A stretch of DNA of 64,000 bases from the NCBI RefSeq assembly GCF_025449215.1, contig NZ_CP104900.1, positions 2,294,001-2,358,000 on the forward strand, given 5' to 3'. A model generated the notes under the pieces. The model did not search any database. It was not told the DNA's origin and was given only the letters and a program-made list of their open reading frames with translations. Both the position numbers and the translations under genes were made by a program. The DNA is from Shewanella seohaensis. Its GTDB lineage: Bacteria > Pseudomonadota > Gammaproteobacteria > Enterobacterales > Shewanellaceae. Shown one piece after another: positions 1,641-60,286 of the stretch. The stretch's first letter is position 1; each line of letters opens with the position of its first letter.

Positions 1641-2410
1641 ATGGAATTTGAACTGACTCTACAAATTGCGGCATTACTCTTTGGCGTGGCTATGGTGGCG
1701 GGGTTTATCGACTCTATCGCCGGCGGCGGGGATTGCTGACTATCCCTGCGTTAATGTGGGCGGGTTTACCGCCGGCGGTAGCGCTCGGGACCAACAAATT
1801 ACAGGCCTGCGGTGGCAGTTTTTTTGCGAGCTTGTACTTTGTGCGTAAGGGATTAGTTGATTTGAAGGCCGTTAAACTGTCCCTTATCTGTGCTTTTGCG
1901 GGCGCTGCCTTAGGCACTATTTTGGTACAGTTAGTCGATGCCAAAGTACTGGAGTTAGTCTTACCCTTTTTAATCCTCGCGATTGGTTGTTATTTCTTGT
2001 TTTCGAAAAAGATTTCGGAAGATGACCGCCATCAAGTGTTAACGCCTACCGCCTTTGCCTTTACCGCCGCGCTCGGTGTGGGTTTGTATGATGGCTTTTT
2101 TGGTCCTGGCACAGGGAGTTTCTTCGCGCTGGCCTTTGTGACCTTGGCCGGTTTTGGTCTGGCAAAGGCGACGGCACACGCCAAGGTGTTAAACTTCTCG
2201 ACCAATATCGCTTCGCTTATCTTCTTTACCTTAGGTGGCAAAGTGATTTGGGTGCTTGGTTTAGTGATGCTTGCCGGGCAGGCAATCGGCGCCACCTTAG
2301 GTTCGCGCTTAGTCGTGACCAAGGGCACTAAGATCATTAAGCCTTTAGTGGTGACTATGTCCTTGGCCATGAGCGTGAAGCTGTTAGCCAGCCAATATCA
2401 CCTGTTTTGA
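1641..2410 (+). pseudogene. TSUP (TauE/SafE) family permease, frameshifted
   Basis: The ATG at 1641 opens a frame starting MEFELTLQIAALLFGVAMV that runs into a stop at 1737-1739. The rest of the protein continues in another frame from about 1733 to 2410. Adding one G to the G4 run at 1728-1731 joins them through the family's glycine-rich motif (SIAGGGGLLTIPAL), giving about 256 residues with around eight membrane segments. TSUP proteins export or import sulfur-containing or small organic anions. The divergent LysR gene suggests regulated expression. The break fits a homopolymer undercall (see findings); the gene is probably intact in the cell. Confidence 0.8.
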
Positions 2411-2688
2411 TATAGCCTCTATTATATTTAACTCTCCCTAGTAAGGCCGATTGTCTATTTGTGCTGCATAGTCCATGAGCACAGTTTTCGGCCTTAATGC
2501 TGCAAATCTCTTCACTCCCTTGGTATTCGCTATACTCCGCGGTCATGTTTAGGATAACCTAGCATTTTTAAAGCGTTTTTAGGGGCATTTGGCTGTGTTA
2601 TTGCCTAGCGGCACCTGAGACTTCACACGTTAAATGGTATGCGCCCACGCGATAGAATCGGCTTAGTATCCATTAAGGTTTAGCAACG

Positions 2689-3891
2689 ATGAGATTTATC
2701 CATACCTCGGACTGGCACATTGGTCGCCAGTTACATAATCAATCACTCTTAGAAGACCAAGCCTATGTGCTTGATCAAATCGTGACATTGGCTGAGCAGC
2801 ACACTGTCGATGCGGTGATTATTGCCGGGGATATTTACGATAGGTCGATTCCTCCGGCCAGCGCCGTGGCTTTGCTCGATGAGGTGCTTAATCGCCTCAT
2901 CACCGAGTTAGGATTACAAGTGCTGATGATTGCCGGTAACCACGACGGGCACGAACGTTTAGGCTTTGCGGCTAAACAAATGGCGGCAAGTGGCTTACAC
3001 ATTATTGGGCCGCTTCAGGCTGATTTAACGCCGATCCGCTTAAGCAGCCCAAGTGGCGATGCTTACTTTTATCCGCTGCCTTACGCCGAACCAGCAACCG
3101 TGCGCCAAGTATTTGAGGCGGATGCTAAGGGGCTCAGCGTATCCAGCCATGAAGAGGCGATGTCGCTACTGCTAGAGCAAGTCCGCAGCCACGATAGCCA
3201 AGGGTTACCTAAAGTCGTTGTTAGTCATTGCTTTTTAGATGGTGGCAGTGAGTCCGAGTCCGAGCGGCCATTGAGTATTGGCGGCGCCGATAAAATTTCC
3301 CCACGGCTTTTTAGTGAGTTTGACTATGTCGCCCTCGGCCACTTACACGGTCCGCAATATAAAGGCCGTGAACATGTACGTTATTCTGGCTCGATTTTGA
3401 AATACTCCTTTAGCGAACAGCATCAACATAAGTCTGTCACCTTAGTCGACATCGCCGCGCACACTCCGGCGCAGATCCAACTCTTGCCATTAACCGCGCT
3501 GCGCGATGTGCGGATTATCGAAGGAGAATTGGCGCATTTATTAGATCTTGGGAAGACCGATGCCAAGCGTGAGGATTACCTGATGGTCAGACTCCTTGAT
3601 AAACACGCCATTTTAGATGCCATGGGCAAATTGCGCAGTGTCTATCCCAATGTGCTGCATCTAGAACGTACTGGATTAATGGCGGGCGAACAGGCCGTCG
3701 CACTCAATCGCGACCATATCAAAAAAGGCGAAATGGCCATGTTCCGTGATTTTTTTAGTCAGGTTTCTGGCGAGGAGTTGAGTGATGCGCAGCAAGCGGT
3801 CATGGATGAGATTTTAACTAAGCTTCACGGGGATGAAGGCGATAGCGGTGGATCTACTCGCGTTGCAGCAAAAGGGGAGCAATCCGCATGA
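2689..3891 (+). CDS. sbcD: Exonuclease subunit SbcD
   Basis: The 400-residue Mre11-like nuclease subunit of SbcCD, which cuts DNA hairpins and double-strand ends. The metallophosphoesterase signatures appear in order: DWHIGR near residue 8, GDIYDRS, GNHDGHE, SHCF and GHLHGPQ, supplying the residues that bind the two metal ions. The C-terminal part is the cap and SbcC-binding region. The start ATG is the first in frame and begins MRFIHTSDWHIG as in homologues. The stop overlaps the sbcC start by 4 bases (ATGA), so translation is coupled. Confidence 0.95.
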   Translation: MRFIHTSDWHIGRQLHNQSLLEDQAYVLDQIVTLAEQHTVDAVIIAGDIYDRSIPPASAVALLDEVLNRLITELGLQVLMIAGNHDGHERLGFAAKQMAASGLHIIGPLQADLTPIRLSSPSGDAYFYPLPYAEPATVRQVFEADAKGLSVSSHEEAMSLLLEQVRSHDSQGLPKVVVSHCFLDGGSESESERPLSIGGADKISPRLFSEFDYVALGHLHGPQYKGREHVRYSGSILKYSFSEQHQHKSVTLVDIAAHTPAQIQLLPLTALRDVRIIEGELAHLLDLGKTDAKREDYLMVRLLDKHAILDAMGKLRSVYPNVLHLERTGLMAGEQAVALNRDHIKKGEMAMFRDFFSQVSGEELSDAQQAVMDEILTKLHGDEGDSGGSTRVAAKGEQSA

Positions 3892-6800
3892 AGCCACTCT
3901 CGCTGTCAATGTCGGCCTTTGGCCCTTTCGCCTCGACTCAAACTATTGATTTTACCGAACTGGGGAATAACCCTTTATTCCTGATCAACGGGCCAACAGG
4001 CGCGGGCAAAACCACGCTGCTCGACGGAATTTGTTTTGCGCTTTACGGCAAAACCACGGGTAACGAACGCGAAGGTAGCCAGATGCGCTGCGATATGGCC
4101 GATGATAGCGTACTGACTGAGGTAACCTTTCATTTTCAATTAGGTAGTACGGGTTATCGTATTCGCCGCGTCCCCGAGCAGGAAAGATTAAAGAAAAGCG
4201 GTGATGGCTCAACGGTACAAAAGAGTGAGGCACAGCTGTATAAGATTGCCCAAGATGGCAGTGAAACCCTTATCGTCGCCAGTAAAGTGTCAGACGCCAC
4301 GGCCGAAATTGAGGCATTAACCGGCTTAGATGTGGAGCAGTTCCGCCAAGTGATGGTGCTGCCGCAGGGGAAGTTTCGCGAATTGCTGATGGCCGACTCT
4401 AAGGCGCGTGAGCAGATTTTTAGCCAATTATTCCAAACCCATATCTATAAGCGCATCGAAGATACTCTAAAGGCTAAGGCGGCGGATATTCGCGCCTTAG
4501 TGAAAGAGCAGCGCGCTCGCCGTGACGGTATTTTGCAAACGGCAGCACTCACATCCGATGTTGAGCTTGTTGCTGAGTTTAGTCGCATTGAACCCGAATT
4601 CGCGGCGGCGACGGCAGCAAAGGAGCAAAGTGTTGCGGCGCATTTAGCGGTATTAAAACAGCGTGATAGTGCGCAGCAACTCTTTGCTGAATTTACTCGC
4701 TTACAGGAATTGCAGGCTGAGGCGCTTAGCCTTAATGAACAGCAAGCGCATATTGCAACCCAAACGACACGGCTTGAGGTGGCCAAGCAAGCGCTGCGGG
4801 TAAAACCCTTATTAGATAATGCCTTGTCGCGGGAGCAAGAAGCGAGTGTTGCAGCATTCCAGCGCGATAGTGCGCAGTCGACGCTCGATGCCGCCAAGCT
4901 CGCCCTCGCTCATGCTGAAACTGCGGCGCAGGAAATTATTCCCCTCGAACATAAGCTGCGCGACCTTGAGCAACAACACAGTCATCTCAGTGCGTTAGTG
5001 CCGCAGCTGGCAGAGTTTACCAGTCTTGAACAAGCTTTAGCGCAGGCAAAAGAGATACTGCAACACACTAAGTTGCAGGGACAGGAGAGTAAAAATGCGC
5101 TTGCAGCTTTAGTTGAGCAGCGCAGCCATTGTGAGAATCAACTGCCAGCCTTGCAACAACAAAGTGAGCAGCAACTTGCCACTGCGCAGGCGTTACAGCA
5201 GCACCGTCATATGCTCGAGCAGTTCAAGCAGTGGCAGCAGATCTGTGCCAAAGTTGCGCACACTCAAGGGATTCTTGAGCAGGTCGGCTCACAAGGAAAA
5301 GCACTAAATACCCAATATCAAACTGCCTCAACGGCTTACAAGTCTTTGCAACTGAAGTGGTTTCAAGGTCAGGCTGCTATTTTAGCTAGAGAGTTAAAAC
5401 CCCATGAGCCATGCCCGGTTTGTGGCAGTTCGGCCCATCCGCATCCCGCGGTGAGTCATGAGGATTTACCAACGGATCTACAATTGCAGGCGGCGCAGGA
5501 TGCCGAGGCCTTGGCGCTCGATAATCTCAATAAAGCGCGGGCAGAATATCGTGGGCTGCAAAAGCAATTAGAAACACAGCAACAGCAGGCGAATGAGCTG
5601 GCAACAGCTCTTGGCGATAAGGTTGAGTTGTCGCTCGAATCCCATAGCCAAACCTTAGAAAGACTCATGCAGCAAGCAAAGCAAGCGGATTCTGCGGCGC
5701 AGGCGCTGCAGCAGTTACAGCAACAGATCAAAACCTTGCAGCAGCAAGAGTCGACTTTGACGCAGCAACTGGAACTTGAGCGTGAGCGTTACCGTGAGCA
5801 AGAAGGCAAAGTCGAGCGGCTATCGGGTCAATTTGCGGAAAAAGCGCTGAGGATCCCAGAAGAATACCGAACACTGGAGGTATTGAATCAAGCGATTGCG
5901 AATAACCAGCAACAACTCGAACAGATAAAACGTCAGATTGATGCATTGAGAACCGCGCAGCAGCAGGCAACGCAGCAGAGTGTGGCGGCGCAAACGACAT
6001 TATCGGCGGCAATAGAGCGTTGTCATGCTACGGCAGATCTGCAGGCGCAAGCACAGCAGACACTACTGACGGCGCTCGATAACGCAGGCTTTATTGATAG
6101 GGATGCATTGCGCGAAGCCTTGTTAACCGATGAGCAAATGCAGGTGCTGGCTGAGGGCATAGAAACCTATCACAGACAGTGCGCCTTAAATCAGTCGCAA
6201 CTGACTCAGCTTACAACCAAGTTGAGCGAGTCGACATCACCCGATCTTGACGCCTTAGAGGCCTTGCTCACAGAGCGACTCGCGCAGCTTAAAGCGGCGG
6301 AAGAGGTATGGAGTCAACTCAATACTCGGCTCACCCTGCTTAACAATACCCAAACTCAGCTGGCAGTGGTCGATCAAAAGGCCAAATCCCTCGAGGATGA
6401 ATATGCTGTGGTTGGCACCTTGGCCGATGTTGCCAACGGTAATACGGGCAACAAAATTTCCCTGCAACGCTTTGTGCTCAGTGTACTGCTCGACGATGTG
6501 TTGCTTGCGGCAACGCAGAGGCTGCATTTAATGAGCAAAGGTCGCTACCGATTATTGCGTAAAGAGGACAGGGCGAAGGGCAATAAGGCCTCAGGGCTAG
6601 AGCTTGAAGTCGAGGATGCCTACACCTCTAAAGTGCGTCCCGTGGCGACTTTAAGTGGTGGTGAGAGTTTTATGGCAGCTTTGTCGATGGCCTTGGGCTT
6701 ATCGGATGTGGTTCAAGCTTACGCGGGCGGAATAAAACTCGATACCTTATTTATTGACGAAGGCTTTGGCAGCCTAGATCAGGACTCCCTCGAACTTGCC

Positions 6801-6944
6801 ATTCGCACGCTGATGGATTTGCAGTCGGCGGGGAGGATGATTGGGGTGATTTCCCATGTATCCGAAATGAAAGAACAGATAGGCACTCGAATTGATATCT
6901 TGAAAACCTCCCATGGGAGTGAAATCAAGGTGATTTTGCCTTAG
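3888..6944 (+). CDS. sbcC: Exonuclease subunit SbcC (SMC-like ATPase)
   Basis: A 1018-residue Rad50-like ATPase partner of SbcD. A Walker A motif (GPTGAGKTT) lies near residue 35. Two very long Gln/Ala/Leu/Glu-rich coiled-coil arms flank a zinc hook CPVCG at about residues 509-513. The C-terminal ATPase lobe has the signature LSGGES, a Walker B (LFIDEGFGSLD) and an SHVSEMKEQI segment. Dimers clamp DNA and the hook joins two complexes. It overlaps sbcD by 4 bases. Length matches E. coli SbcC (about 1050). Confidence 0.95.
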   Translation: MKPLSLSMSAFGPFASTQTIDFTELGNNPLFLINGPTGAGKTTLLDGICFALYGKTTGNEREGSQMRCDMADDSVLTEVTFHFQLGSTGYRIRRVPEQERLKKSGDGSTVQKSEAQLYKIAQDGSETLIVASKVSDATAEIEALTGLDVEQFRQVMVLPQGKFRELLMADSKAREQIFSQLFQTHIYKRIEDTLKAKAADIRALVKEQRARRDGILQTAALTSDVELVAEFSRIEPEFAAATAAKEQSVAAHLAVLKQRDSAQQLFAEFTRLQELQAEALSLNEQQAHIATQTTRLEVAKQALRVKPLLDNALSREQEASVAAFQRDSAQSTLDAAKLALAHAETAAQEIIPLEHKLRDLEQQHSHLSALVPQLAEFTSLEQALAQAKEILQHTKLQGQESKNALAALVEQRSHCENQLPALQQQSEQQLATAQALQQHRHMLEQFKQWQQICAKVAHTQGILEQVGSQGKALNTQYQTASTAYKSLQLKWFQGQAAILARELKPHEPCPVCGSSAHPHPAVSHEDLPTDLQLQAAQDAEALALDNLNKARAEYRGLQKQLETQQQQANELATALGDKVELSLESHSQTLERLMQQAKQADSAAQALQQLQQQIKTLQQQESTLTQQLELERERYREQEGKVERLSGQFAEKALRIPEEYRTLEVLNQAIANNQQQLEQIKRQIDALRTAQQQATQQSVAAQTTLSAAIERCHATADLQAQAQQTLLTALDNAGFIDRDALREALLTDEQMQVLAEGIETYHRQCALNQSQLTQLTTKLSESTSPDLDALEALLTERLAQLKAAEEVWSQLNTRLTLLNNTQTQLAVVDQKAKSLEDEYAVVGTLADVANGNTGNKISLQRFVLSVLLDDVLLAATQRLHLMSKGRYRLLRKEDRAKGNKASGLELEVEDAYTSKVRPVATLSGGESFMAALSMALGLSDVVQAYAGGIKLDTLFIDEGFGSLDQDSLELAIRTLMDLQSAGRMIGVISHVSEMKEQIGTRIDILKTSHGSEIKVILP

Positions 6945-7201
6945 TCTAACTTAAGCGGAGAAATATTGGCTTAACACATTGTTTTTATTGAAATGACAAA
7001 CGAGATTTTGCGCTATTTAACATCTATATACAGAACACACAATCGGTTTAAAGTGCTAACTGACGCATGTTTTTAGTAAATAGTGCTATAAAAGTGCAAA
7101 ATAGCGTTTGTCATAATCGGTTTTTTGGGATAAGTTGACAAAATTCGGGCTTCCCCCTGAGGGACTGGTTCAAAAATATAACGCAATAACGATAACAAAA
7201 G

Positions 7202-8506: not shown

Positions 8507-8536
8507 TCTATTCATTTACCCGCGCGAACCGAATAT

Positions 8537-8573
8537 AAAAACGCCGATGAATTTGATGTCATCGGCGTTTTTA
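8537..8573. terminator. Terminator after the M23 peptidase
   Basis: Perfect inverted repeat ACGCCGATGA / TCATCGGCGT with a short loop, preceded by A4 and followed by T5. Confidence 0.9.
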
Positions 8574-8828
8574 TTTGCGCGGTGTTTAGCGATAACGGCT
8601 GGAAAATGGGGTATTCATCAAAATACAAGTTTAATGAGATTGATGCTTGGCCGAATAAGCAATGAGTGTTACTGCTTTAATAAGCGTTGAATAGAGTGAA
8701 ACTGGCACTACATAAAGGGTACAAGCAGATATCGCCTTATAGATGGGCCGAGTGCCGATATAAGCAAGTCACTTGGCGCTATATTAGCTTTGATTAAGTT
8801 ACGCAGAATAACCGTCAATTCAAATGAA
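8574..8828. other. Spacer with no recognised feature
   Basis: Spacer between the M23 terminator and the convergent Lys/Cys-rich gene. I see no convincing ORF, hairpin or repeat in it. Confidence 0.5.
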
Positions 8829-13136: not shown

Positions 13137-13245
13137 GTTGTGAGGATACTTAGTCTTCGTATAATAATTTAGGCAAGTGACTGTTTGATTGGCTTATTTT
13201 TTGCTTTAACCCCATCACACAGTGTTAGATGCCGAATTATTGACG

Positions 13246-13940
13246 ATGAATCCTCTTTTAAATGCCTTAAATCTGAACCGTAGCAGTGTTGCTGATGCCT
13301 ATGGCCTGAACAGCAAGAAGACGGACACGAGTAAGACTGACACAAGTAAGACTGAGTCCAGTACGGATGCTAAGTCATCCACCAAGGATACGCCTAAGAC
13401 TGAAGCGAAACCGAGTGATGAGATTGCCTTGTCACCCCGTGCACTTAGGGCGCAAAAAATTCAAGCCATGTCGAAGGATTTTTTGCCGATGGCCAGTTTA
13501 GTGTGTCTGATATTCCGGCCCTAGTGTCTCGGCTGCAAAAGGACGGCATTTTGTCCGATGCACAGGTTGAGCGACTGTCACAAAACGGCATTAATTTGCC
13601 GAGTCAAAAGCCGAGCAAGCAATCCCTGCAGGACTTTATCGACGATGAGCTAAAGTCCTTAGCGGAAAAGTCACCAAACAGTCCTATGATCAACACCTTA
13701 GTTGATGCTAAAAACGTATTGTCGAATATGGATGATGCGCAATCCCCAGTGCTGGCACAAAAAGCCACCAAGGTATTTGGCCAGTTAACCGATTATCTAA
13801 ATAGCAATCCAACACTGAGCGACAGCCAAAAACAGTTATGGCAGGGGCTTAAGTCGACTATGCAAGTGGCTTCCTCCATGGGGATGCAGCAATCGGCATC
13901 GGGGCAACTGAGTAGTTATCTTGCCTTAGCCAAGCGCTAA
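13246..13940 (+). pseudogene. Uncharacterised Shewanella-type protein, frameshifted
   Basis: Two frames, from ATG 13246 and up to 13940, join into about 231 residues if one T is added to the T6 run at 13479-13484, giving the continuous sequence SKDFFADGQFSVSDIPALVS. The N-terminus has Thr/Lys/Ser-rich near-repeats (KTDTSKTDTSKTES, residues about 25-50) and the C-terminal half is helical. I do not recognise a family. A GTG at 13222 could start it earlier. A hairpin at 14002 follows. The single-base homopolymer break suggests a sequencing error. Confidence 0.65.
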
Positions 13941-14277: not shown

Positions 14278-16394
14278 ATGCCAGTCGTGATCAAGCGGGA
14301 TGGTTGCCGCACACCTTTTGATGAAACAAGGATAAGAGATGCAGTGATAGCGGCTGCAAACTCGGTTGGGATAGAGGATGCAGACTATGCCGCGACGGTT
14401 GCCGCTTGTGTGAGGGAGCGAGTGGCCAATCTGGCAGAAGTCGAGATCCACCATTTACAGGATGCGGTTGAAAACCTACTGATGGAAGGACCTTACAAGT
14501 CTCTGGCGCGGGTGTATATCGAGTATCGCCATGACAGAGACATTTGCCGCGATGCGACCAGTAAACTCAATCTCGAAATCCGTGGTTTAGTCGAGCAGAG
14601 CAATGCGGCGCTGTTAAATGAAAACGCCAATAAAGACTCTAAAGTAATCCCAACCCAGCGGGATTTACTCGCGGGTATCGTCGCGAAACATTACGCCAAG
14701 AGCCATATTCTGCCTAAGGATGTAGTGGCCGCCCATGAACTTGGCGAAATCCATTATCACGATCTCGATTATTCGCCGTTTTTCCCGATGTTTAACTGCA
14801 TGTTGATTGATTTGGCGGGTATGTTGACCCACGGTTTTAAGATGGGCAACGCCGAAATTGAGACCCCAAAATCCATCTCCACCGCTACAGCGGTCACGGC
14901 GCAGATCATTGCCCAAGTGGCCAGTCATATTTATGGCGGCACCACGATTAATCGTATTGATGAAGTGCTCGCGCCTTTTGTGGCGAAGAGCTACGACAAA
15001 CACTATCAAGTGGCGCTCAACTGGCAGATTAAAGATGCCAAGGCCTATGCGACGGCGCTCACCGAAAAAGAATGTCATGACGCTTTCCAATCCCTTGAAT
15101 ATGAAGTGAATACCTTACATACCGCCAATGGGCAAACCCCTTTGTGACCTTTGGTTTTGGTCTGGGTACTTCGTGGGAATCGCGTTTAATTCAGCAATCT
15201 ATGTTGAAAGTCCGTATGACGGGCCTAGGTAAAAATCGTAAGACTGCCGTGTTCCCTAAACTGGTGTTTGCGATTCGTGATGGCATTAATCACAAGGCCG
15301 GTGATTGCAACTACGATGTCAAACAAATGGCCCTAAAATGCGCCAGCATGCGCATGTATCCGGATATTTTGAACTACGAGCAAGTGGAAAAGGTCACGGG
15401 GTCATTTAAAACCCCAATGGGCTGTCGCAGCTTTTTAGGCTCCTATAAAGAAAATGGCGAGCTGGTTCATGAAGGGCGCAATAATCTTGGGGTGGTGAGC
15501 TTAAACTTGCCCCGAGTTGCCCTCGAGGCCAATGGTGATGAGGCTGAATTTTATCGCATTTTAGATGAGCGTTTACTGCTTGCCCGCCGCGCATTAGACA
15601 CCCGCATCGAACGTTTAAACGGCGTTAAAGCCAGAGTTGCACCGATTTTGTATATGGAAGGCGCCTGTGGTGTGCGCCTGCGCGCCGATGATGATATCGC
15701 CCAAATTTTTAAAAATGGTCGGGCATCGATTTCATTAGGCTATATCGGTTTGCATGAAACCATCAATGCGCTCTATGGCACTGAAACCCATGTCTTTGAT
15801 GATGCCAAACTTCGTGAAAAAGCGGTGGCGATTGTCGCGCATCTTAAAGCGGCTACCGATGCATGGAAGGCCGAAACCGGTTATGGGTTTAGCCTTTATA
15901 GCACCCCGAGTGAGAGCCTCTGCAGCCGTTTCTGTAAACTCGATGCGCGCCAATTTGGCGTGGTTGCAGGGGTAACCGATAAGGGCTATTACACCAATAG
16001 CTTCCACTTGGATGTTGAAAAGCGGGTGAATCCCTACGATAAAATTGATTTTGAGCAGCCATATCCTGCGATCGCCAATGGCGGATTTATCTGCTACGGC
16101 GAATATCCGAATATGCAGCACAACATCGAAGCACTCGAAAATGTGTGGGATTACAGTTATAGCCGCGTGCCTTACTACGGTACTAACACACCGATTGATG
16201 AATGCTACGACTGCGGTTTTACTGGCGAGTTTAGTTGTACTAGCAAAGGCTTTACTTGCCCTAAATGCGGTAACCATGAGCCAAGCCGAGTGTCAGTCAC
16301 CCGCCGAGTGTGTGGTTACTTAGGTAGTCCAGATGCCAGACCATTCAACCATGGCAAGCAAGAAGAAGTGAAACGCAGGATCAAACACTTGTAA
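14278..16394 (+). pseudogene. nrdD: Anaerobic ribonucleoside-triphosphate reductase NrdD, frameshifted
   Basis: The class III ribonucleotide reductase makes dNTPs without oxygen using a glycyl radical. Frame 1 covers the N-terminal ATP cone (VIKRDGCRTPFDETRI) to 15147; frame 2 continues to 16394. One extra C in the C4 run at 15137-15140 fuses them (NGQTPFVTFGFGLGTS) into about 705 residues, close to the 712 of E. coli. The C-terminus has the zinc site CYDCGF..CPKCGN and the glycyl-radical motif RRVCGYLGSP, with the radical Gly at about 680. The enzyme needs NrdG, encoded just downstream. The break fits a sequencing undercall. Confidence 0.9.
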
Positions 16395-19367: not shown

Positions 19368-19826
19368 TTAACCAGCTGATTTTTTGGCTTCACGCACTTT
19401 TTGCTCCATCAAGGTAGTGATTTGACCGCTAAGTTGCATAATTTGATCCTGTAATAGCTTGCGCTGTTGAGCCGCAGCTTCAGAATTATCGCCCTTCAGT
19501 TTAGTGAGTTTTTCTTGCAAGTCTTTGATTTGCTCTTTGATACGTTTAATTTGCTCATCAATAATCGATGTGGGTTTCTCTTCCGTTTCCTTACTTTGTG
19601 ACTGTTGCAGTTTGTCGGCGAACGCGCTCCTTAAGGTCGCACTAAGATCGTTGGCAAGTGCTTGCCTACCCGCATTTGAAATATTCACGCTGGATTGTGT
19701 GTCTGACTCAGGCTCAACGTTTGCCGTCGTATTAGTTGGGGAGGCGGGTGGGATTGAAACATAGGCCGTAGATAAGGACTTTAAGGCGCCGCTGCTTGCC
19801 GCAGTATTTAATCCATTAATGTTCAC
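19368..19826 (-). CDS. FlxA-like family protein
   Basis: A 152-residue protein with a GTG start and a strong AAGGAA ribosome-binding site. It begins MNINGLNTAASSGAL. The C-terminal half is a long coiled coil (IIDEQIKRIKEQIKDLQEKL, then QQRKLLQDQIMQLSGQITTL), the hallmark of the FlxA-like family. FlxA of E. coli is under flagellar sigma control, but its role is unclear. No flagellar promoter was identified here. Confidence 0.72.
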   Translation of the reverse strand: MNINGLNTAASSGALKSLSTAYVSIPPASPTNTTANVEPESDTQSSVNISNAGRQALANDLSATLRSAFADKLQQSQSKETEEKPTSIIDEQIKRIKEQIKDLQEKLTKLKGDNSEAAAQQRKLLQDQIMQLSGQITTLMEQKVREAKKSAG

Positions 19827-26672: not shown

Positions 26673-27014
26673 TTAGCCTTCATCTTTCTTACCTTTATTG
26701 ACTACTTTAAGCTGTTCATCGGCGGTCTTTCGGCTGAATTCATCAATCAAAATACGCAGCAGACGCGATTTGGCGATCTTGGTTTCTTTTGCTAGGCCAT
26801 CGAGCTGGGAAATACTGGTTTCGGTTAAGGTAAAAGTCGCGTGACGGTAAATCTTGGCGGACTTTTTATCTAATCCCTTTGGCTCGGCAGTGGGGATACT
26901 AAGAAGACTCGCCTTACCAAGAGCATAGTTATTGGCATCTTCAATAAAATCATCAACAGAAACCGACTTGATGACTTGTTTGGGTTTCTTACGTTTAAGA
27001 TCAGTTAAGCTCAT
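26673..27014 (-). CDS. Predicted ribbon-helix-helix protein next to ParA
   Basis: A protein of about 113 residues from ATG 27014 (MSLTDLKRKKPKQ). A basic, flexible N-terminus (KRKKPKQVIKSVSVDDFIED) is followed by a strand and two helices, RHATFTLTETSISQLDGLAKETKIAKSRLLRILIDEF, which fits a CopG/RHH DNA-binding fold. It overlaps the end of the parA gene by 14 bases, so they are translated together. An RHH protein beside a ParA ATPase is the arrangement of small partition systems. A longer frame to 27092 lies inside parA and is unlikely. Confidence 0.68.
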   Translation of the reverse strand: MSLTDLKRKKPKQVIKSVSVDDFIEDANNYALGKASLLSIPTAEPKGLDKKSAKIYRHATFTLTETSISQLDGLAKETKIAKSRLLRILIDEFSRKTADEQLKVVNKGKKDEG

Positions 27015-27668
27015 AACTATTTTCTGGAGGTAAGGTGAACAGCTCATCCACAATTGCGCGGATTTCGTCGGCCGCTTTTCCATCGGGCTCAATTTCCATC
27101 ACGGACGATCCTTTTTCCTCACTGTCATCGTAAATATTGCGGCAGAACGTGACCGAGTTGAGCACGCGTAGGCCAAAGGATTGGACAACTTCTTTCGCCT
27201 CAAGGATCCGTTTGACCTGTGTGGGTAGTGCGGGACATTGGGTGAGGACTATGGTGGCCACCATTTTGGGGTTAACCATCTTACAGGTGCTGAGCATGTC
27301 TTCCATATGGGGCAAGGTTTTTAGATCGCGACGCTTAGGCCTTAAGGGGATCACCACGTAAGTGGCTACCGACATCGCGGCACGCATAGCAAGGTTATCT
27401 TGGCCACCACAGTCGACAATCACATAGTCGAAACGCTCATTGAGACTGAGCAAATCGTTACGAATTTTGCCGTAGAGTTGAATACAGTTAATGGCAGGGA
27501 GGCTAGGGTCGTTGTTTCGGGCTTGATCCAATCGGATGTGGTACGTTGTGGGTCACAGTCGACCATCAGCACATTGGCGTCAAATTTCTGTTTTATATAA
27601 ACCGCCAGATTTTGCGCGAGGCAACTCTTGCCACTGCCACCTTTTTCACCACCCACCAGCAATATCAT
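27001..27668 (-). pseudogene. ParA/MinD-type ATPase, frameshifted
   Basis: The N-terminal frame (27668 down to about 27529) begins MILLVGGEKGGSGKSCLAQ, with the deviant Walker A KGGSGKS and Walker A' VDCDPQRTTSDW. The rest continues in another frame to 27001, with IVDCGGQDN and VVIPLRPKRRDL. Adding one base to the CC at 27528-27529 on the plus strand joins them (SDWDQARNNDPS) into about 222 residues. ParA ATPases move or anchor cargo on the nucleoid. The RHH gene overlaps its 3' end and a PilZ gene lies 77 bases upstream, all on one strand. Confidence 0.8.
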
Positions 27669-28752: not shown

Positions 28753-29924
28753 TTAGCCTGGGCGTCCATCGGCTCTTACGCGACAAAGCATGGGCCCATA
28801 GCAGTAACAGAAACAACCAAAGGCTATCATCCACAGCGCAACGGCGGCGAGCATGAGTTCGATAAACCAGGCACTTAACAAGCCCGCAAGGACGCGCAGC
28901 ACTGTGGCGAAGAGGATCAAGGCAAAAGCCAACGTCATGGGTCGTGGCGGTGTTAGCGTGCGGCCAGTATGTCCGAGTGAGACCCGTGACATCATAGCGA
29001 GGATCATTCCGCCTAATCCCCCAACAGTAATAGCATGCATGCCAACGGAAAGTGGCAATCCCGCTGCAATCATCCCTAAGCCGATGGGGATGCATAAGTA
29101 ACTTAAATGCAGCGACCATAATAGTGGCACGGGCCAACTCGCGCGCCATCCCCAACGTGACCAGCGAAATAACAGGACTACGCCTGCTACGCCCGCCAGA
29201 AGGCGAGTTAATAGGGTTTCAGTGAAAAAGAGGCTCAGCACGAGAGCAAAGAGGCTCGCAAAACTGACAAACTCAATGGCTGGGATCGGGGCATGCTTTT
29301 GCCATTGGGTTGCGCGCTCAGTGAAAATGGGATCACCCGTCCACCGAGCAGCGCGACGATCACGGCGACCAATATCACTGCGGCATAGAGTCCGTTATTC
29401 ATCCAATTCAATTGATTCGTCATTAAGCCGTAATAACTCACGCCGTTGAAGAGGGTGAGTAAACTCAGAATGGGAATAAACACAAAGTTGCGCCACTGGC
29501 GAACCTCAATCACCGAAATGGCTAACAAGATCGCCGTTAAGGGTAAAAACAGCAGATCGATGATCATAATCGCAACAAACGGAATGTTGAAGGGCAATAT
29601 GAACAGCAACCGAGGCAGTAGCCAGACTAAAAATAGCCCAGCTAAAGGCAAGCCTTTAACGCCGGGGCGGCCCGTCCAGTTTTGAACGGCCGTCAGTAAA
29701 AAGCCTGCAACCACTGCGCAGACAAAGCCAAAAATCATCTCATGGCCATGCCACCAGAGTGAATTGAGTGTGCTTGGCAGTAACGACTTGCCTGAGAGCA
29801 AGCCGCCCCATATGCCCAAACTTAAGAGACTAAACAGGCTGGCAAACAGGAAAAAGGGTCTAAAACCTAAGCGAAACAAAGCTACTTTGGGTTGTAAGTG
29901 TGCGGGTTCATCAATATTCAGCAT
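28753..29924 (-). pseudogene. nnrS: NnrS family membrane protein, frameshifted
   Basis: NnrS is a haem- and copper-containing membrane protein that helps bacteria tolerate nitric oxide. The first frame (ATG 29924, or TTG 29969) contains LFRLGFRPFFL, WWHGHEMIFGFVCAVVAGFLLTAVQNWTG and GGRVIPF; after a break at the A4 run 29324-29327 the second frame continues with SLFFTETLLTRLL to 28753. One more A on the plus strand restores IPFFTERATQW and a protein of about 390 residues with around 12 membrane segments, the family length. A sequencing undercall is likely. Confidence 0.85.
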
Positions 29925-29969
29925 ACAGAGCAGTGGTGAAGGTGAACATGGGAATATTTTAAGCTGCAA

Positions 29970-42148: not shown

Positions 42149-42500
42149 AAGCGCATCCCTTATGTTTTGAGTAATTGAGCAAACGGGTGAAGTAATAGCC
42201 ACCTTGAGTGTAGACGATGCTTTTCAATAATTCCTAAGCGCCTTGAGAAATGTGCAATTATTTTTGTCTAATAATCATTAAACTAAGTTAATGTTAATTA
42301 ATGAAATAACCTCATTCGCTTCGCTCATCATTATCTAAGTAACGCCGGTTCGGTACCGCTTGAGTTAGCTGGTTTTTCGCGATGTTTTATTGGCCTTTGG
42401 CTACGCTTCGCAACTCTTTTCAGCATTAGACCTGCATCCCCTTCGCTTGCTAAACTAGCGCCATTTGCAATCGCATCGATAGCTTAAGAGGGGAGTAAGA
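42149..42500. other. Divergent spacer with no recognised feature
   Basis: Promoters for the VOC gene and the DUF445 gene must lie here. The stretch 42300-42480 has CTTCGC-rich segments that look like decayed repeat sequence, but I cannot support a specific element. Confidence 0.4.
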
Positions 42501-43280: not shown

Positions 43281-43627
43281 ATGGACCATCACAGTATTAA
43301 TTATTTAGAAATCCCCACCACAGATATTGGCGGCTCCAAGGCCTTTTTTAATACGGTATTTGGTTGGCGCTTTGAAGATTACGGCCCGCAGTACAGCTGT
43401 TTTATTGATGCGGGGATCACGGGAGGGTTTTATCAAGCAGAGGTGAATTTTAACCTCGAAAAGGTTGCCCGCTCATCGTGTTGTACAGCAAGGACTTAGA
43501 ACAGACTCAAGCGGCGGTGAAGGCGGCGGGCGGTGTAATCAGTACGGCGATTTTCAGCTTTCCCGGTGGACGGCGTTTCCACTTTATCGAGCCTGCGGGC
43601 AACGAATATGCGGTCTGGTCAGAGTAA
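43281..43627 (+). pseudogene. VOC family protein, frameshifted
   Basis: The first frame from ATG 43281 (HSINYLEIPTTDIGGSKAFFNTVFGWRFEDYG) ends early; the second frame resumes with PLIVLYSKDLEQTQAAVKAAGG and FPGGRRFHFIEPAGNEYAVW, stopping at 43627. Adding one G to the GG at 43463-43464 joins them (NLEKGCPLIVLY) into about 115 residues, the normal single VOC domain. A sequencing undercall is likely. The DUF1289 gene overlaps the end by 20 bases. Confidence 0.82.
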
Positions 43628-53800: not shown

Positions 53801-54145
53801 GGCCGCGCCCTTGTTGCCACGCTCTTCTTTATCAATCTGAACAATGACTTCTTGTCCTTCACTGACCACTTCTTTGATGTTTGGGCGACCTTGGAAAGAA
53901 TAACCTTTAGGGAAGTATTCTCTGGCGATTTCTTTTAGTGGTAAAAAGCCGTGGCGCTCTGCACCATAGTCAACGAAAGCTGCTTCTAAAGAGGGTTCTA
54001 CGCGGGTAATTTTACCTTTGTAAATATTGGCTTTTTTCTGCTCGTGACCTGGACTTTCGATGTCTAGATCGTACAGTTGTTGCCCATCAACTAGGGCAAC
54101 GCGCAACTCTTCAGATTGAGTCGCATTAATTAACATCCGTTTCAT
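50864..54145 (-). CDS. rne: Ribonuclease E
   Basis: A 1093-residue endoribonuclease central to mRNA decay and rRNA/tRNA maturation. The catalytic half (about residues 1-520) has the S1 domain ([21 protein letters not shown]), the RNase domain ([36 protein letters not shown]) and the zinc link C403-PR-C406. A membrane-targeting helix [16 protein letters not shown] lies near residue 555. The C-terminal half is a disordered scaffold with Arg-rich blocks and Ala/Glu/Val/Thr repeats, ending in an element similar to the PNPase-binding tail. Its long 5' region suggests autoregulation, as in E. coli. Confidence 0.95.
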
Positions 54146-54739
54146 GATGACGTCATTCTTCTTAAAATAAGGTCATCAAACAATCGCGTTTCGCTGCATT
54201 ACGGGCCTAGCAGTAGGTCAACGAAGCCTCACGGCTGGTGGCTAGGCAAGGTGCGCATTACTGTTAGACGCAATCGCTGCGTGTCGCATCCTATTTATGG
54301 CTTATTTTTTAATGATTACAAAAACAAGGAATTCGTTGTAAAACGTCAACCAACCCCATAAATTCTTTAATTTCGTTCCGGTAATGCCCAAGTCGAATCG
54401 GTTTGTCTGACGACAAGTTAAAATATATTTCGAAATCGGTGAGAAAAACTTTAGATAAACCTAGTCAAAGTAAGGTTAGATTCTCGATTTAATCGTAAAA
54501 AACGCATTTGTGGTATTTTTACTCAGTATACGATTTGCAAATCAATGAGTTGCTATCAAGAAAATCTTTTTTAATCTATAAAGCTTTTCACTTGGGACTG
54601 GGACCTTGTGAACACTTTATTCACGGCTTATCCCTAATCGCTGGTGAAATATAGCAATAATCAAAAAATTCAGCAATGGAAAGGCACAATTCTTCTTAAG
54701 TGTTGTACAATGGCCGCCGTTTTAAGCAGATGGCACATC
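54146..54739. other. Divergent control region of rne and rluC
   Basis: A 594-bp spacer. The part next to rne is probably its long 5' UTR, which in E. coli is cut by RNase E to limit its own synthesis. A TACAAT (54706-54711) about 30 bp before rluC is a possible -10 box. No protein or tRNA is recognised. Confidence 0.6.
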
Positions 54740-55699
54740 ATGAATACAGAATCTCCACAGCTACAGGTGCAGTTGATCACGATTGACGAAGACCACCTCG
54801 ACCAACGAATCGACAATTTTTTAATCACAGTGCTAAAGGGCGTCCCTAAGAGCATGATTTACCGTATCGTCCGCAAGGGTGAAGTACGGGTGAATAAAAA
54901 ACGCATTAAGCCTGAGTACAAATTGCAAATAGGTGATGTGGTCCGTGTGCCGCCGGTCAGAATGGCTGAGCAGGATAATCGCACCGCGCCTTCTGCAAAC
55001 TTGAGCAGAGTCTCGCAGCTTGAAGACCGTATTTTGCATGAAGACAATCATCTGATTGTATTGAATAAACCTGCTGGCATTGCGGTACATGGTGGCAGTG
55101 GTGTCGATTATGGTGTGATTGAGGCGCTACGCTCCTTACGTCCGCAACAAAAGTTTTTAGAGCTGGTTCATCGTCTCGATAAAGACACCTCGGGTGTGTT
55201 GTTGGTGGCCAAAAAACGCAGTGCCCTTAAACATATGCACGATCAGTTGCGTTATAAAAAGATGCAGAAGGATTACTTGGCCTTAGTCAAAGGTGAGTGG
55301 TCGGCGCAGGATAAAGTGGTTAAACAGCCGCTATTAAAATTAACGCTTAAGTCGGGCGAGCGTATCGTTCGAGTCAATGCCGAAGGCAAACCCTCGGAAA
55401 CGCGCTTTAAAATTGTACAACGTTATCAAGGTTGTACTCTGGTGCAGGCGAGCCCTGTGACTGGACGTACTCATCAGATTCGTGTGCATTGCCAATATAT
55501 GGGGCATCCTATCGCCTGTGATGAGAAATACAGCGAGCAGGCGTTTGATGACAGTATGCGTGCACTCGGTCTGACCCGGCTGTTTTTACATGCGGCAGAA
55601 TTAATGTTTATTCATCCTGAAAACGATGAGGTGATGCGAGTCTCTGCGCCGCTCGATGATAATTTGCAGCAACTGCTAGGCAAGTTAAAGCGTGCTTAG
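54740..55699 (+). CDS. rluC: 23S rRNA pseudouridine synthase RluC
   Basis: A 319-residue enzyme (E. coli 319) that makes pseudouridines 955, 2504 and 2580 in 23S rRNA. From ATG 54740 it starts MNTESPQLQVQLITIDED; a longer frame to 54644 lies in the rne promoter region. The S4 domain covers about 12-75 (DNFLITVLKGVPKSMIYRIVRKGEVRVNKKR), catalytic D147 sits in HRLDKDTSG, and GRTHQIRVH follows. The divergent rne-rluC pair is conserved. The stop lies inside a tandem repeat. Confidence 0.94.
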   Translation: MNTESPQLQVQLITIDEDHLDQRIDNFLITVLKGVPKSMIYRIVRKGEVRVNKKRIKPEYKLQIGDVVRVPPVRMAEQDNRTAPSANLSRVSQLEDRILHEDNHLIVLNKPAGIAVHGGSGVDYGVIEALRSLRPQQKFLELVHRLDKDTSGVLLVAKKRSALKHMHDQLRYKKMQKDYLALVKGEWSAQDKVVKQPLLKLTLKSGERIVRVNAEGKPSETRFKIVQRYQGCTLVQASPVTGRTHQIRVHCQYMGHPIACDEKYSEQAFDDSMRALGLTRLFLHAAELMFIHPENDEVMRVSAPLDDNLQQLLGKLKRA

Positions 55700-55741
55700 T
55701 GGCTTAGTGGCTTAGTGGCTTAGTGGCTTAGTGGCTTAGTG
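55695..55741 (+). repeat. Tandem repeat, 8-bp unit CTTAGTGG, five perfect copies
   Basis: Copies begin at 55695, 55703, 55711, 55719 and 55727, with a partial sixth. The first copy contains the rluC TAG stop (55697-55699), so the array begins in the last codon of the gene. Confidence 0.95.
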
Positions 55742-55780
55742 TTTGTGTCTGCGCCTATTACCTACGGATAACCTGAGAGC

Positions 55781-56526
55781 ATGAAAGTGTCAGTGAGTCA
55801 TTCAAGCCAACGAAAATATGATTTAGTGATTTTTGATTGGGATGGCACGTTAATGGATTCCATCGGTAAAATCATTGTTTGTATTGAGAATATGGCTAGG
55901 GCGCTGGCGCTACCAGTGCCTGCTGAGGCGGATATTCGCAATGTGATTGGCTTGTCGATGACGCAGGCGTTACAGGTGTTATTTCCCGAAGGTTTGACTT
56001 CAGTGCCGCCGCGTAACGGATCTGCAAGCAGCGCAGCACAAGCGGGGGCGACTCAAGCGCTTGTTGGCACTGATGATTGCTATATTAAGATGCGCGCTGA
56101 GTTTAAGACGCAGTATTTGCACCTTGATACCACGCCGACGCCGATTTTTAACCAAGCCCCCAACTACTCGAATCATTATCAACAGCAGGATATCAACTTG
56201 CTGTCGCAACGGGTAAGGCGAGAGCAGGCTTAGTGCGCGTGTGGGAGCAATCCGGCTTAGGTCACTACTTTATTGCTTCGCGCTGCGCCGATGAGGCGCA
56301 GAGTAAACCTCACCCAGAAATGATCTTAAGTTTGCTGCAGGAGTTAGGTGTTCCGCCTGAACGCGCCTTGATGGTCGGAGACTCTTTGTTGGATTTAACC
56401 ATGGCGGCGAATGCGGGTATCGACGGTGTGGGTGTCACTTACGGCGCTCATAGAGAAGAAATGCTCAAGCAAGCTAATCCCATCGCCTTAATTGATTCCC
56501 CTGAAAAACTCTTGCTGCATTTATAG
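55781..56526 (+). pseudogene. HAD family hydrolase (phosphoglycolate phosphatase-like), frameshifted
   Basis: The frame from ATG 55781 has motif I DWDGTLMDS and runs to 56233; a second frame ends at 56526 with KPHPEMILSLL and MVGDSLLDLTMAANAG (motif IV). Adding one C to the C5 run at 56157-56161 joins them through NQAPQLLESLSTAGYQLAVATGKARAGL (motif II region) into about 248 residues. A small Ser/Ala/Gly-rich insert (NGSASSAAQAG) lies in the cap. HAD-IA phosphatases of this type act on small phosphorylated molecules. Probable sequencing undercall. Confidence 0.82.
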
Positions 56527-56688
56527 TGATTGACTCATCAGCGCCGATTAATGAAGAATGCTGAGCTGAATCGCTAATAACCTAAGTGCTTGTTGAGTTA
56601 TCTAGGCAAGCGATTATGGATAACAGTGCCATCTCGCTTGCCCATCTCGAACCGCACTTACGTCAGCCACCTTAATAACCACTTCACA

Positions 56689-57276
56689 CTAGTCGGCTAA
56701 GACATCGATTCCATGATTGAGCAGCATTTCAGTTAACAGTATTAAGGGCAGCCCAATCAGGGTGTTAGGATCTCGGCCCTCTAAGCGAGTAAACAAAGCA
56801 ATCCCTAAACCTTCACTCTTAAAGCTACCCGCACAATAAAAAGGTTGCTCTTTATCGACATAAGCGGCGATTTGCGCGGCCGTCAGCTGACGAAAATGCA
56901 CGGTGAAAGGTTCGACCTGAGCCGTCACTTCTCCAGTCTTAGCATGGTAGAGCGCAAGACCCGTATAAAAGGTAATAGCTTTGCCCGAGGCTTGGCTGAG
57001 TTGCTTAATCGCATTGTCTCGATTTAATGGCTTACCAATAATCTTGCCGTCAATCACAGCGACCTGATCTGAGCCTATAATTAATCCATGTGGAAAATGG
57101 CTTGCACCTGCCTTGGCCTTAGCTTTTGCGAGTCGTAAGACTAAGTCTTGGGCGGACTCATTTGCCATGGGGCTTTCATCGATATCCGGATTGCAAGTCT
57201 CAAAGGCTAAGCCTAACTTTTGCAATAGTGCTTGTCGGTAAACAGAGGTAGAAGCGAGGATTAACTGGGGCGTCAT
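56689..57276 (-). CDS. yceF: Maf-like nucleotide pyrophosphatase YceF
   Basis: A 195-residue Maf-family enzyme (7-methyl-GTP pyrophosphatase type) with [15 protein letters not shown], the conserved [18 protein letters not shown] and [15 protein letters not shown]. It removes non-canonical nucleotides. It is divergent from yceD, as in E. coli, which favours YceF over other Maf members. Confidence 0.9.
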
Positions 57277-57524
57277 CGGTAAAAATCCATAAGAAAACCT
57301 GACTTATTGTCGCTAATCGTCACGCTTGAATGCAAGCGAGTGGTGGCAGATCGCATGACTTTAGGGCGGTAATCGGGGATTCTTACGATGAGTGCGGCTA
57401 TTTTAGACGGCTTACGCTTGTGCGCCGCCCCGTGCTTGGGTAAAATTTCGCTTCCGTTAATTTCAATGTTGGGGCTAGAGAATCACTTAAGTCGCAAACT
57501 GGGACTTAAGTTAGAAATTTTTCT

Positions 57525-57551
57525 TTGACTCTAGCGTTTTCAAACTATAAT
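57525..57551 (+). promoter_or_regulatory. Sigma70 promoter of the yceD-rpmF-fab cluster
   Basis: TTGACT (57525-57530; or TTTGAC one base earlier), 15-16 bases, TATAAT (57546-57551). The expected transcription start is near 57558, only about five bases before the yceD ATG. Confidence 0.72.
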
Positions 57552-57562
57552 ATGCGCGCCTT

Positions 57563-58087
57563 ATGCAAACAGTAAAGATACCGGTTTCAATTGATCCTAT
57601 ACGCGCCGCCTCGAGCCGTTCTACCTATGAGGGGATAGTGCCAGGGCAGCAATTGAAAAGATTAAATGAGTTATGTGCCGGCGACTGTTCCGATGTGGCA
57701 GTGTCGCTTGAATGTGGTGTGGATATACAGGGGATAGTCTACCTGAAAGGGAAGGCTGTGACGGAGCTCACTCTGAATTGTCAACGTTGCATGACGCTAT
57801 TTACCACTGAGGTTACGGTCGACTTTTGTTTCGGTCCTTGCGGGTCTGAGGCAGAAATCGATGAGCTCCCGGATGCGTATGACCCTATTGAGTGCAATGA
57901 GATAGGTGAAATTCGTCTGCATCAATTGATTGAAGATGAATTGATAGTAGCTATGCCTATCATCCCGATGCATGAAGAAACTGATTGCAACATCGGGTCA
58001 ATGGACATAGTGGTAGGCGAGATTGAACCCGCTCAAGAGGAGCGTCCAAATCCGTTTGCAGTGTTAGAAAAACTGAAGAGCAAGTAA
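57563..58087 (+). CDS. yceD: YceD family protein (DUF177), rRNA-linked
   Basis: A 174-residue acidic protein that begins MQTVKIPVSIDPIRAA, matching the E. coli YceD start. The conserved LNCQRCMTLF and CNEIGEIRLHQLIEDELIVAMPIIPMH are present, ending with PNPFAVLEKLKSK. YceD homologues are tied to 23S rRNA accumulation. No Shine-Dalgarno precedes the ATG. It is followed by rpmF after 17 bases, as in most bacteria. Confidence 0.88.
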   Translation: MQTVKIPVSIDPIRAASSRSTYEGIVPGQQLKRLNELCAGDCSDVAVSLECGVDIQGIVYLKGKAVTELTLNCQRCMTLFTTEVTVDFCFGPCGSEAEIDELPDAYDPIECNEIGEIRLHQLIEDELIVAMPIIPMHEETDCNIGSMDIVVGEIEPAQEERPNPFAVLEKLKSK

Positions 58088-58104
58088 TCTAGGAGACAGG
58101 TCAA

Positions 58105-58275
58105 ATGGCTGTACAACAGAATAAAAAATCTCGTTCAAAGCGCGGTATGCGCCGTTCACACGATGCATTGAGCACTGCTCAACTGTCTGTGGATGCAACG
58201 AGTGGTGAAATCCATATGCGTCACAACGTGACTGCAGACGGTTTCTACCGCGGTCAAAAGGTTATCAACAAGTAA
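58105..58275 (+). CDS. rpmF: 50S ribosomal protein L32
   Basis: A 56-residue protein: [20 protein letters not shown] at the N-terminus and [11 protein letters not shown] at the end. Start ATG 58105 has AGGAGA eight bases before. It sits between yceD and plsX, the conserved place for L32. This L32 lacks the zinc-binding cysteine pairs, as in many proteobacteria. Confidence 0.96.
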
Positions 58276-58285
58276 TCTGTTGATA
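58263..58285 (+). promoter_or_regulatory. Small hairpin over the rpmF stop, next to the plsX start
   Basis: A perfect 7-bp stem TATCAAC / GTTGATA with a 9-base loop containing the rpmF stop, ending four bases before the plsX ATG. plsX has no clear Shine-Dalgarno, so translating ribosomes finishing rpmF may open the site. Confidence 0.4.
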
Positions 58286-58289
58286 GCTA

Positions 58290-59318
58290 ATGACTAATCT
58301 GACGCTTGCGTTAGATGCGATGGGGGGCGATCATGGCCCCCACGTCACAGTGCCTGCAACCTTGCAGGCACTAAAATCTCACTCTTCTCTTAAAATTATT
58401 TTAGTCGGCGATAAGACTGAAATTGATGTCTATCTGCGTCAAGCAGAACAACTGTTACTCTCACGTATTGAAGTCATTCACACCGATGAAGTGGTGAGCA
58501 TGTCCGATAGACCCGTGCACGCTTTGCGTACCCGCAAGAATAGTTCGATGCGCTTGTCGATTGAGCTGGTGCGTGACGGACGAGCGGCGGCGTGTGTGAG
58601 TGCGGGCAATACTGGTGCCTTAATGGCCATGGCCAAGGTGTTATTAAAAACCTTGCCCGGCGTAGACAGACCCGCGTTGGTCAGTTGCTTACCCTCGGTC
58701 ACGCAAAAGCCAGTTTATTTATTGGACTTAGGTGCCAATATCTCCTGCGATTCAGAAACGCTTTTCCAATTTGCCGTGATGGGCTCTGTGCTGTGTGAGG
58801 CGGTGGATAAAAAATCCCGCCCTAAAGTTGCACTCCTTAATGTGGGCACAGAAGAAATCAAAGGCAACGATCAGGTTCAACAAGCGGCGCAAATACTGCA
58901 AAACACCGATCAGATTAATTACACCGGCTTTATCGAAGGTGATGAAATCTATTCTGGGAATGTTGATGTGATCGTTTGTGATGGTTTTGTGGGTAACATC
59001 ACGCTCAAAACCTCTGAAGGCATTGCCAAGTTATTGGTCCATCAGTTAAAACGTGGCCTAACCCAAGGTTTCTTCGTGCGTTTTTTGGCAAAACTCATCG
59101 CCCCACGCATTCAGGCGGTCCTCAGCCAGATGAACCCCGACCACTATAACGGAGCAAGTCTGATAGGATTGCGCGGCATTGTAGTAAAAAGTCATGGAAG
59201 TGCGGATGAACCTGCCTATTTACAAGCAATTAGTTTGGCAGTGACCGAAGCACAACGTCGACTCCCTAAGATGATAAAAGAACGTTTGGAGTCGATCCTT
59301 TTAGACATAAATAACTGA
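58290..59318 (+). CDS. plsX: Phosphate acyltransferase PlsX
   Basis: A 342-residue enzyme that turns acyl-ACP into acyl-phosphate for phospholipid synthesis. [19 protein letters not shown] at the start, [27 protein letters not shown] and [15 protein letters not shown] are family blocks. It ends 9 bases before fabH. Confidence 0.95.
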
Positions 59319-59327
59319 TTCCTCCTT

Positions 59328-60286
59328 ATGTATACAAAAATTCTCGGAACTGGTAGTTATTTGCCAGCGCAAGTCCGTAGCAATCAAGATCTGGAAAAGA
59401 TGGTGGATACCAATGACCAGTGGATTGTTGAACGTACCGGTATTTCAGAGCGTCGCATCGCGGCGCAAGACGAAACTGTCTCAACTATGGGCTATCAGGC
59501 GGCATTAAAGGCGCTCGAGATGGCCGGCATAGAAGCATCAGAGTTAGATATGATCATTTGTGGCACCACCAGTGCGGCAAATGCGTTCCCTGCGGCGGCC
59601 TGTGAAATCCAAGCCATGCTCGGCGTACATACCATTCCAGCCTTTGATATTGCGGCGGCTTGTTCAGGTTTTGTGTATGCCTTATCCGTGGCGGACCAAT
59701 TCGTTAAAAATGGTACCGCGAAAAAAGTATTAGTGATTGGTGCTGACGTATTATCCCGTCTGTGTGAGCCAGAAGACCGTACTACTATCATTCTGTTTGG
59801 GGATGGTGCAGGTGCTGCGGTTATCGGCGCTTCCGATGAGCCAGGGATTATTTCAACCCATATTTATGCCGATGGTCGTCAAGGTGACTTACTCAAGTGT
59901 GCCTTCCCACCTCGTCAGGGGAGACCTCTGAAGCGGTTGGCTTTATGACCATGAAAGGTAATGACGTCTTTAAAGTGGCGGTGACTCAGTTATCCCATGT
60001 CGTTACTGAAACATTGCGCCTGAATAATATCGATAAGTCGGAAATCGACTGGTTGGTTCCCCATCAGGCTAACTTCCGCATTATTAATGCCACGGCGAAA
60101 AAGCTAGATATGAGCTTAGATAAAGTGGTGTTAACCCTTGCTAAACACGGTAATACCTCGGCGGCGTCGGTACCGATTGCCTTAGACGAAGCTGTGCGTG
60201 ATGGCCGGATCCAACGTGGCCAGCTATTGCTACTTGAAGCCTTTGGTGCCGGTTTTGCGTGGGGCAGTGCGCTCGTCCGTTTTTAA
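59328..60286 (+). pseudogene. fabH: 3-oxoacyl-ACP synthase III FabH, frameshifted
   Basis: FabH starts fatty-acid synthesis by condensing acetyl-CoA with malonyl-ACP. The first frame contains catalytic C112 (DIAAACSGF); after about residue 197 it goes out of frame. The second frame carries the His of PHQANFRI and the Asn of KHGNTSAAS. Adding one G to the G4 run at 59918-59921 joins them ([16 protein letters not shown]) into about 319 residues, close to the E. coli 317. The enzyme is important for growth, so an error in sequence is far more likely than a real break. Confidence 0.92.

Follow-up and report, generated by a model that had tools for sequence, protein, structure and literature searches.

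Frameshifts in eight genes of a Shewanella seohaensis chromosome segment as very probable residual consensus errors of a long-read assembly

The window analysed here is a 64 kb stretch (positions 2,294,001-2,358,000) of the single 4,751,888-base contig of Shewanella seohaensis (the own genome, G000), in which eight genes, including nrdD, nnrS and fabH, carried one one-base gap each. All eight gaps were deletions in reference to four related genomes of the genus (G122, G121, G070 and G092). As judged by sequence comparison, the eight genes are almost certainly intact in the organism, and their breaks would represent residual consensus errors of a long-read assembly left uncorrected or under-corrected with accurate reads. 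The signature was that of a directed base loss: one-base deletions exceeded one-base insertions in coding sequence (137 versus 18, or 92 versus 6 in genes with a single gap), the losses depended on the length of the affected one-letter run, and indispensable genes were hit. The presence of the chromosome as one 4.75 Mb contig indicates long reads.

On the basis of the DNA of the nnrS region, the nearest of the 129 genus genomes searched were G122 (95%), G121 (90%), G070 (90%), G041 (85%) and G092 (84%). The RNase E encoded in the window was 94% identical (best segment) to its counterpart in Shewanella decolorationis S12, and the window gave a 13.2-kb match of 92.8% with the S. decolorationis S12 record. 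For the window, syntenic 80-kb blocks from G122, G121, G070 and G092 were compared, and all gaps were listed after left-alignment. For a wider comparison, 864 kb of the own chromosome (window included) was set against stretches of 880 kb from G122 and from G121; 753,644 own bases were aligned to both, and about 110 of the 864 kb of own DNA were unaligned and excluded. Gaps were left-aligned and had to be shared against both relatives. Coding refers to frames of at least 100 amino acids that are open in both relatives. As controls, G122 and G121 were each treated as the focal genome under identical rules. Run lengths were tabulated only where the two references had a run of equal length between identical flanks, and where these flanks were unaltered in the focal genome. 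As the own genome is one of the two references of each control, runs shortened in it fall out, and the control totals are slightly lowered.

Within the window, the gap position was identical in all four relatives at seven sites, and at 29324 in three of the four, G092 showing the same gap one base leftward. For all eight genes the frame was open in G122 and G121. Five of the breaks (1728, 29324, 43459, 56157 and 59918) had shortened a run of five or six, and six of the eight were losses from a one-letter run when the mere pair at 27525 is included; those at 13479 and 15138 were not run losses (Table 1).

Table 1. Window genes broken by a one-base deletion; coordinates are positions within the window.
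Gene	Coordinates	Strand	Break and remarks
TauE/SafE (TSUP) permease gene	1602..2410	+	Break at 1728; G run one base shorter than in all four relatives
Gene without NCBIfam or Pfam match at E 1e-5	13189..13940	+	Break at 13479; missing base adjoins T6 run and is a different letter
nrdD, anaerobic ribonucleoside-triphosphate reductase	14278..16394	+	Break at 15138; missing letter differs and lies inside the stretch read here as a C run; no homopolymer loss
ParA-like ATPase gene	27001..27668	-	Break at 27525, G pair read as one G; NCBIfam ParA_partition under cut-off
nnrS	28753..29969	-	Break at 29324, A run
VOC (glyoxalase-fold) gene	43281..43627	+	Break at 43459, A run beside GG at 43463
HAD hydrolase gene	55787..56526	+	Break at 56157, C run
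fabH, beta-ketoacyl-ACP synthase III	59328..60286	+	Break at 59918, G run

A sequence-only reading of the window had described the same eight genes as broken by single-base deletions, which the four relatives bear out, and had proposed the comparison with close Shewanella genomes that was run here; the relatives carry the extra base at all eight sites. It had also placed every loss in a homopolymer, to be repaired by one identical base. This part stands as named for 1728, 29324, 56157 and 59918, and stands in another run for two genes, the parA site being a G pair at 27525 a few bases to the left of the CC at 27528 that had been proposed, and the VOC site being the A run at 43459 that adjoins the proposed GG at 43463. 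It fails for the other two: the letter missing at 13479 lies next to the T6 run and is different from it, and nrdD lacks a different letter, at 15138, in place of the proposed C4 loss at 15137. In all, four of the eight earlier positions or letters needed correction, and the earlier reading holds in its main point but errs in several particulars.

Three of the sites were further compared with named relatives, using 32 of 79 loci (L009-L040). At both 43459 and 56157 all four usable alignments gave the relative one extra base (28 loci without match at each site). At 59918 the relative had one extra base in 22 of 23 alignments (9 without match), and seven in the remaining one.

The density of breaks in the window, 8 per 64 kb, was not unusual for the genome when referred to the 137 one-base coding deletions per 754 kb. 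Over the wide comparison, the frame-changing coding gaps of the own genome further comprised 18 one-base insertions, 13 two-base deletions and 8 two-base insertions, the remainder being longer. Altogether 133 own genes were hit and 118 were net out of frame, the corresponding controls being 7 for G122 and 8 for G121 (about 754 kb each). Genes with a single gap accounted for 92 one-base deletions, 6 one-base insertions, 4 two-base deletions and 1 eleven-base deletion. The absence of insertions, which had been part of the sequence-only reading, is therefore too strong a claim genome-wide, one-base coding insertions being present in the 754 kb and 6 of them being the sole gap of their gene. All three genomes were aligned over the full length of 588 reference frames, of which 114 had a net frameshift in the own genome. 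In 103 of the 118 genes the first shift fell between 5% and 95% of the gene length; in the other 15 it was in the outer 5%. Branch lengths do not account for the excess of breaks: private substitutions in an inner 464-kb stretch numbered 12,040 in the own genome, 10,865 in G121 and 6,909 in G122. The coding deletions were spread approximately at random over 16 bins of 29 kb in the same stretch (variance/mean 1.09).

Ten reference frames of the window in total had frame-changing gaps, two of which were not clean breaks. A small open frame at 19368-19826 had seven clustered indels in reference to the relatives, which were net in frame, and it represents local divergence, not a single-base error. 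A one-base insertion at 42165 (against three of the four relatives) was judged to sit upstream of the likely true start of its gene, which is still included among the 118.

The dependence on run length was pronounced. Coding A/T runs were shortened in the own genome in 4 of 1092 cases at length five, 29 of 293 at six, 9 of 32 at seven, and 3 of 3 at eight or more, and coding G/C runs in 2 of 1177 cases at length four, 22 of 179 at five, 6 of 8 at six, and 1 of 1 at seven; none of these tabulated runs was lengthened. The loss rate thus climbs with run length, the onset for G/C coming at a lower length than for A/T, and a climb with run length was seen in noncoding DNA too. Taking all conserved coding runs of at least five together, 74 of 1608 were shorter and 0 longer in the own genome, in comparison to 0 shorter and 2 longer of 1540 in G122, and 0 shorter and 0 longer of 1534 in G121. 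In noncoding DNA, the controls had 4 shorter and 6 longer of 464 runs of at least five (G122), and 5 shorter and 8 longer of 470 (G121).

Long runs were lost at a similar rate in coding and noncoding DNA of the own genome, that is, 41 of 328 versus 17 of 163 for A/T runs of at least six, and 29 of 188 versus 7 of 28 for G/C runs of at least five, which indicates no visible selection against frameshifts in such runs. Neither did one-base deletions per kb fall with conservation, the rates in the four conservation quartiles being 0.174, 0.200, 0.205 and 0.240. Losses were accordingly blind to coding status in long runs, and to conservation when expressed as deletions per kb by quartile.

Indispensable genes were among those broken. 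The genes rpoB and rpoC (near 0.30 Mb) each matched in two frames in the own genome and in single frames in all five relatives tested, and no second rpoB or rpoC was found in whole-genome searches of the own genome. Two frames were likewise found for dnaE (561 and 644 amino acids) and tilS (190 and 247 amino acids), both of which are whole in G122, and shifts were located at 69% of the length of lpxA and at 12% of dnaX. Work in Escherichia coli has established rpoB, rpoC, dnaE, dnaX, lpxA and tilS as essential. A free-living cell is impossible without RNA polymerase and replicase, and at least these shifts must therefore be false; nothing was found that separates the eight breaks of the window from those in the indispensable genes. 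The genes lolC, lpxH and iscS were also listed as broken, with shifts at 8%, 5% and 16%, and were not relied on, lolC and lpxH being shifted near the start. The gene lpxB was rejected as a case of an essential break, as its shift is at 99% and leaves a frame of 383 amino acids in comparison to 385; it was dropped from this set and kept within the 118. Matches to ABC transporters at 1.73, 2.88 and 4.33 Mb, as seen in the own sequence by itself, each consisted of two overlapping or adjoining frames, and together with the split rpoB and rpoC they suggest that the same fault seems to extend far from the window.

Recent and real gene decay, by a mutator or by relaxed selection, would mean that about a fifth of the genes had been inactivated. 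The given sequence does contain the broken frames, and the own genome has far more shifts than its relatives, as such decay would have it. The decay would, however, have killed rpoB, rpoC, dnaE, dnaX, lpxA and tilS, with no second copy of rpoB or rpoC found. MutS (888 amino acids) and MutL (665 amino acids) were single open frames, so that neither of the losses expected of a mismatch-repair mutator was present, and real slippage in replication would lengthen runs as well, against 0 lengthened and 74 shortened coding runs. Relaxed selection was not apparent either: the nonsynonymous share of own-private codon changes was 0.178 after the break, 0.174 before it, and 0.161 in genes not net-broken. 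The identical gene sets gave 0.170 and 0.173 versus 0.136 in G122, and 0.158 and 0.157 versus 0.143 in G121, differences about as large as in the own genome or larger. Private nonsense substitutions numbered 14 in the own genome and 9 in G121, under a rule slightly stricter for the own genome, the count covering these two genomes. Decay is on these grounds highly improbable as the source of the breaks.

Alternatively, the DNA itself could carry the shifts, with the frames restored when the RNA polymerase or the ribosome slips on the runs. Some reduced genomes are known for such a rescue at A/T runs, and runs of at least five held 50 of the 92 single-gap coding deletions, which would suit it. 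In 31 of the 92, however, the run on offer is only one or two bases long. G/C runs of five or six were hit more often per run than A/T runs of equal length, rpoB and rpoC are whole in all five relatives tested, and the noncoding losses climb with run length alike. Such rescue is to be regarded as extremely improbable, and the broader proposal that the short runs are real and that hundreds of frameshifts, including those in RNA polymerase, are tolerated through pervasive slippage in transcription or translation is scarcely credible, even less so than rescue as such. The reading of the breaks as systematic sequencing error in an unpolished or under-polished assembly, which in its unpolished form the sequence-only reading had also proposed, agrees with the deletion excess, the run-length law, the hits in indispensable genes, and the blindness of the long-run losses to coding, and it accounts for these results better than each alternative considered.

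Some of the results weigh against consensus error as the source of the breaks. All sites were judged from the DNA of relatives and thereby indirectly. The 31 single-gap coding deletions of 92 in which the true run is only one or two bases long make homopolymers alone insufficient as an explanation. The test for blindness to coding was clean for long runs only: A/T runs of five were shortened more in noncoding (7 of 302) than in coding DNA (4 of 1092), and single G/C bases were lost in 4 of 78,081 coding and 13 of 10,914 noncoding positions, most classes of one to four bases behaving alike. When deletions in runs of at least five are counted alone, the most conserved quartile has the smallest rate (0.105, 0.129, 0.112 and 0.080 per kb). 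Moreover, a one-base run difference in the 16S genes of the own genome was found in G070 as well, as described below, though the 80 kb of G070 showed no surplus of lost bases. As to the short runs, the controls likewise show more noncoding than coding shortening, and the noncoding excess is read as real noncoding change added to the errors.

The deletions outside long runs were not without context. In the reference, 18 of the 31 short-run deletions lay at most four bases from GGG or CCC, against a background of 0.131; this proximity was scored on the reference, since a loss in the own genome can itself create the tract. The sequence-only reading would have every error in a homopolymer, which was found neither among the single-gap deletions (31 of 92 in short runs) nor in the window (two of eight sites outside runs). 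According to a study on long-read errors (Kastor, PMC12007338), non-repeated bases are also lost in errors of this kind, so that an exclusive location in homopolymers is not required.

In three of the six single-gap insertions an A had been placed between CC and GTGAA, and another consisted of a T in front of CAGTGAA. Conserved CCGTGAA sites had an insertion in 3 of 78 cases, and the insertions perhaps reflect a basecaller context. In total, an A inserted between CC and GTGAA was observed in four genes (G000:C1:2218587, 2237515, 2398249 and 2637154), one of which has two gaps. A motif or methylation as the cause of the errors was considered and rejected, because 7-mer tables of the own-private gaps and substitutions had no dominant motif: among 7-mers lacking a run of five, the worst was deleted at 5 of its 38 conserved occurrences, and the best substitution 7-mer had a P of 3.4e-4, uncorrected, with many tested.

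With regard to the read type, nanopore is most likely. In nanopore (R9-like) reads, a run of at least five would give a near-constant signal, on which the consensus may settle one base short, and a base next to a short G/C-rich context could be dropped likewise. A consensus error from another technology, such as PacBio continuous long reads (CLR) with too little polishing, is a lesser possibility and rather unlikely. Other platforms drop bases in runs too. The absence of lengthened long coding runs, an onset of losses at runs of five (G/C) or six (A/T), deletions next to short G/C tracts, and the A between CC and GTGAA in half of the six single-gap insertions look more like nanopore, a preference that is pattern matching, not proof.

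Errors of this kind are already known (PMC8011154, PMC12007338). The Homopolish paper (PMC8011154) gives 151-5298 pseudogenes for R9.4 assemblies after Racon-Medaka, with homopolymer indels shifting the frames and hundreds or more of false pseudogenes per genome, as in the own genome. In two listed bacterial examples of the same paper, deletions exceeded insertions after some polishing steps, which is again similar. Unlike in those cases, the platform and polishing history are here inferred. The Kastor study (PMC12007338) ties long-read deletions to runs of two to eight, with a small non-repeated share, and describes one uncorrected draft with 1234 pseudogenes (23.3% of genes). Deletions in A/T runs exceeded those in G/C runs by count in that study, as they did in the own coding runs of at least five (45 versus 29), and non-repeated losses, adenine insertions near CC, and the fragmentation of approximately a fifth of the genes in one draft are further likenesses. 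Two differences from the same study (PMC12007338) emerge: the extra adenine follows CCA there and sits between CC and GTGAA here, and the deletions outside runs seem to form a larger share in the own genome (the 31 of 92 with a true run of one or two).

The conserved G6 of the 16S gene was read as G5 in six of the nine own copies. In G070 it was also G5 in five of nine copies, and the 80 kb of this relative had 3 private one-base deletions and 1 insertion, one of the deletions being in a run of at least five. Seven other relatives had G6 in all 59 of their 16S matches. One-base length differences among the nine own copies were three. The copies had been considered as an internal replicate, and were not used as evidence, as the main difference (G5/G6) is also mixed in G070; this difference may be real. 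One of the nine own copies (L209, G000:C1:321810-323352) had 42 differences from the nine-copy consensus, the next copies having 10 and 5, and a segment of 33 bases from its variable region had no exact match in 125 other genus genomes. This copy could be horizontally acquired or recombined, or could result from an assembly fault.

A comparison of run lengths with two relatives constitutes a test that needs no reads and separates base loss from gene decay. The listed completeness of the genome, 99.83%, does not expose the fault. As a species representative, the genome would yield about 700 false pseudogenes (118 per 754 kb scaled to 4.75 Mb), with the risk that a loss of NrdD, NnrS, FabH and others would be misread as the biology of S. 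seohaensis.

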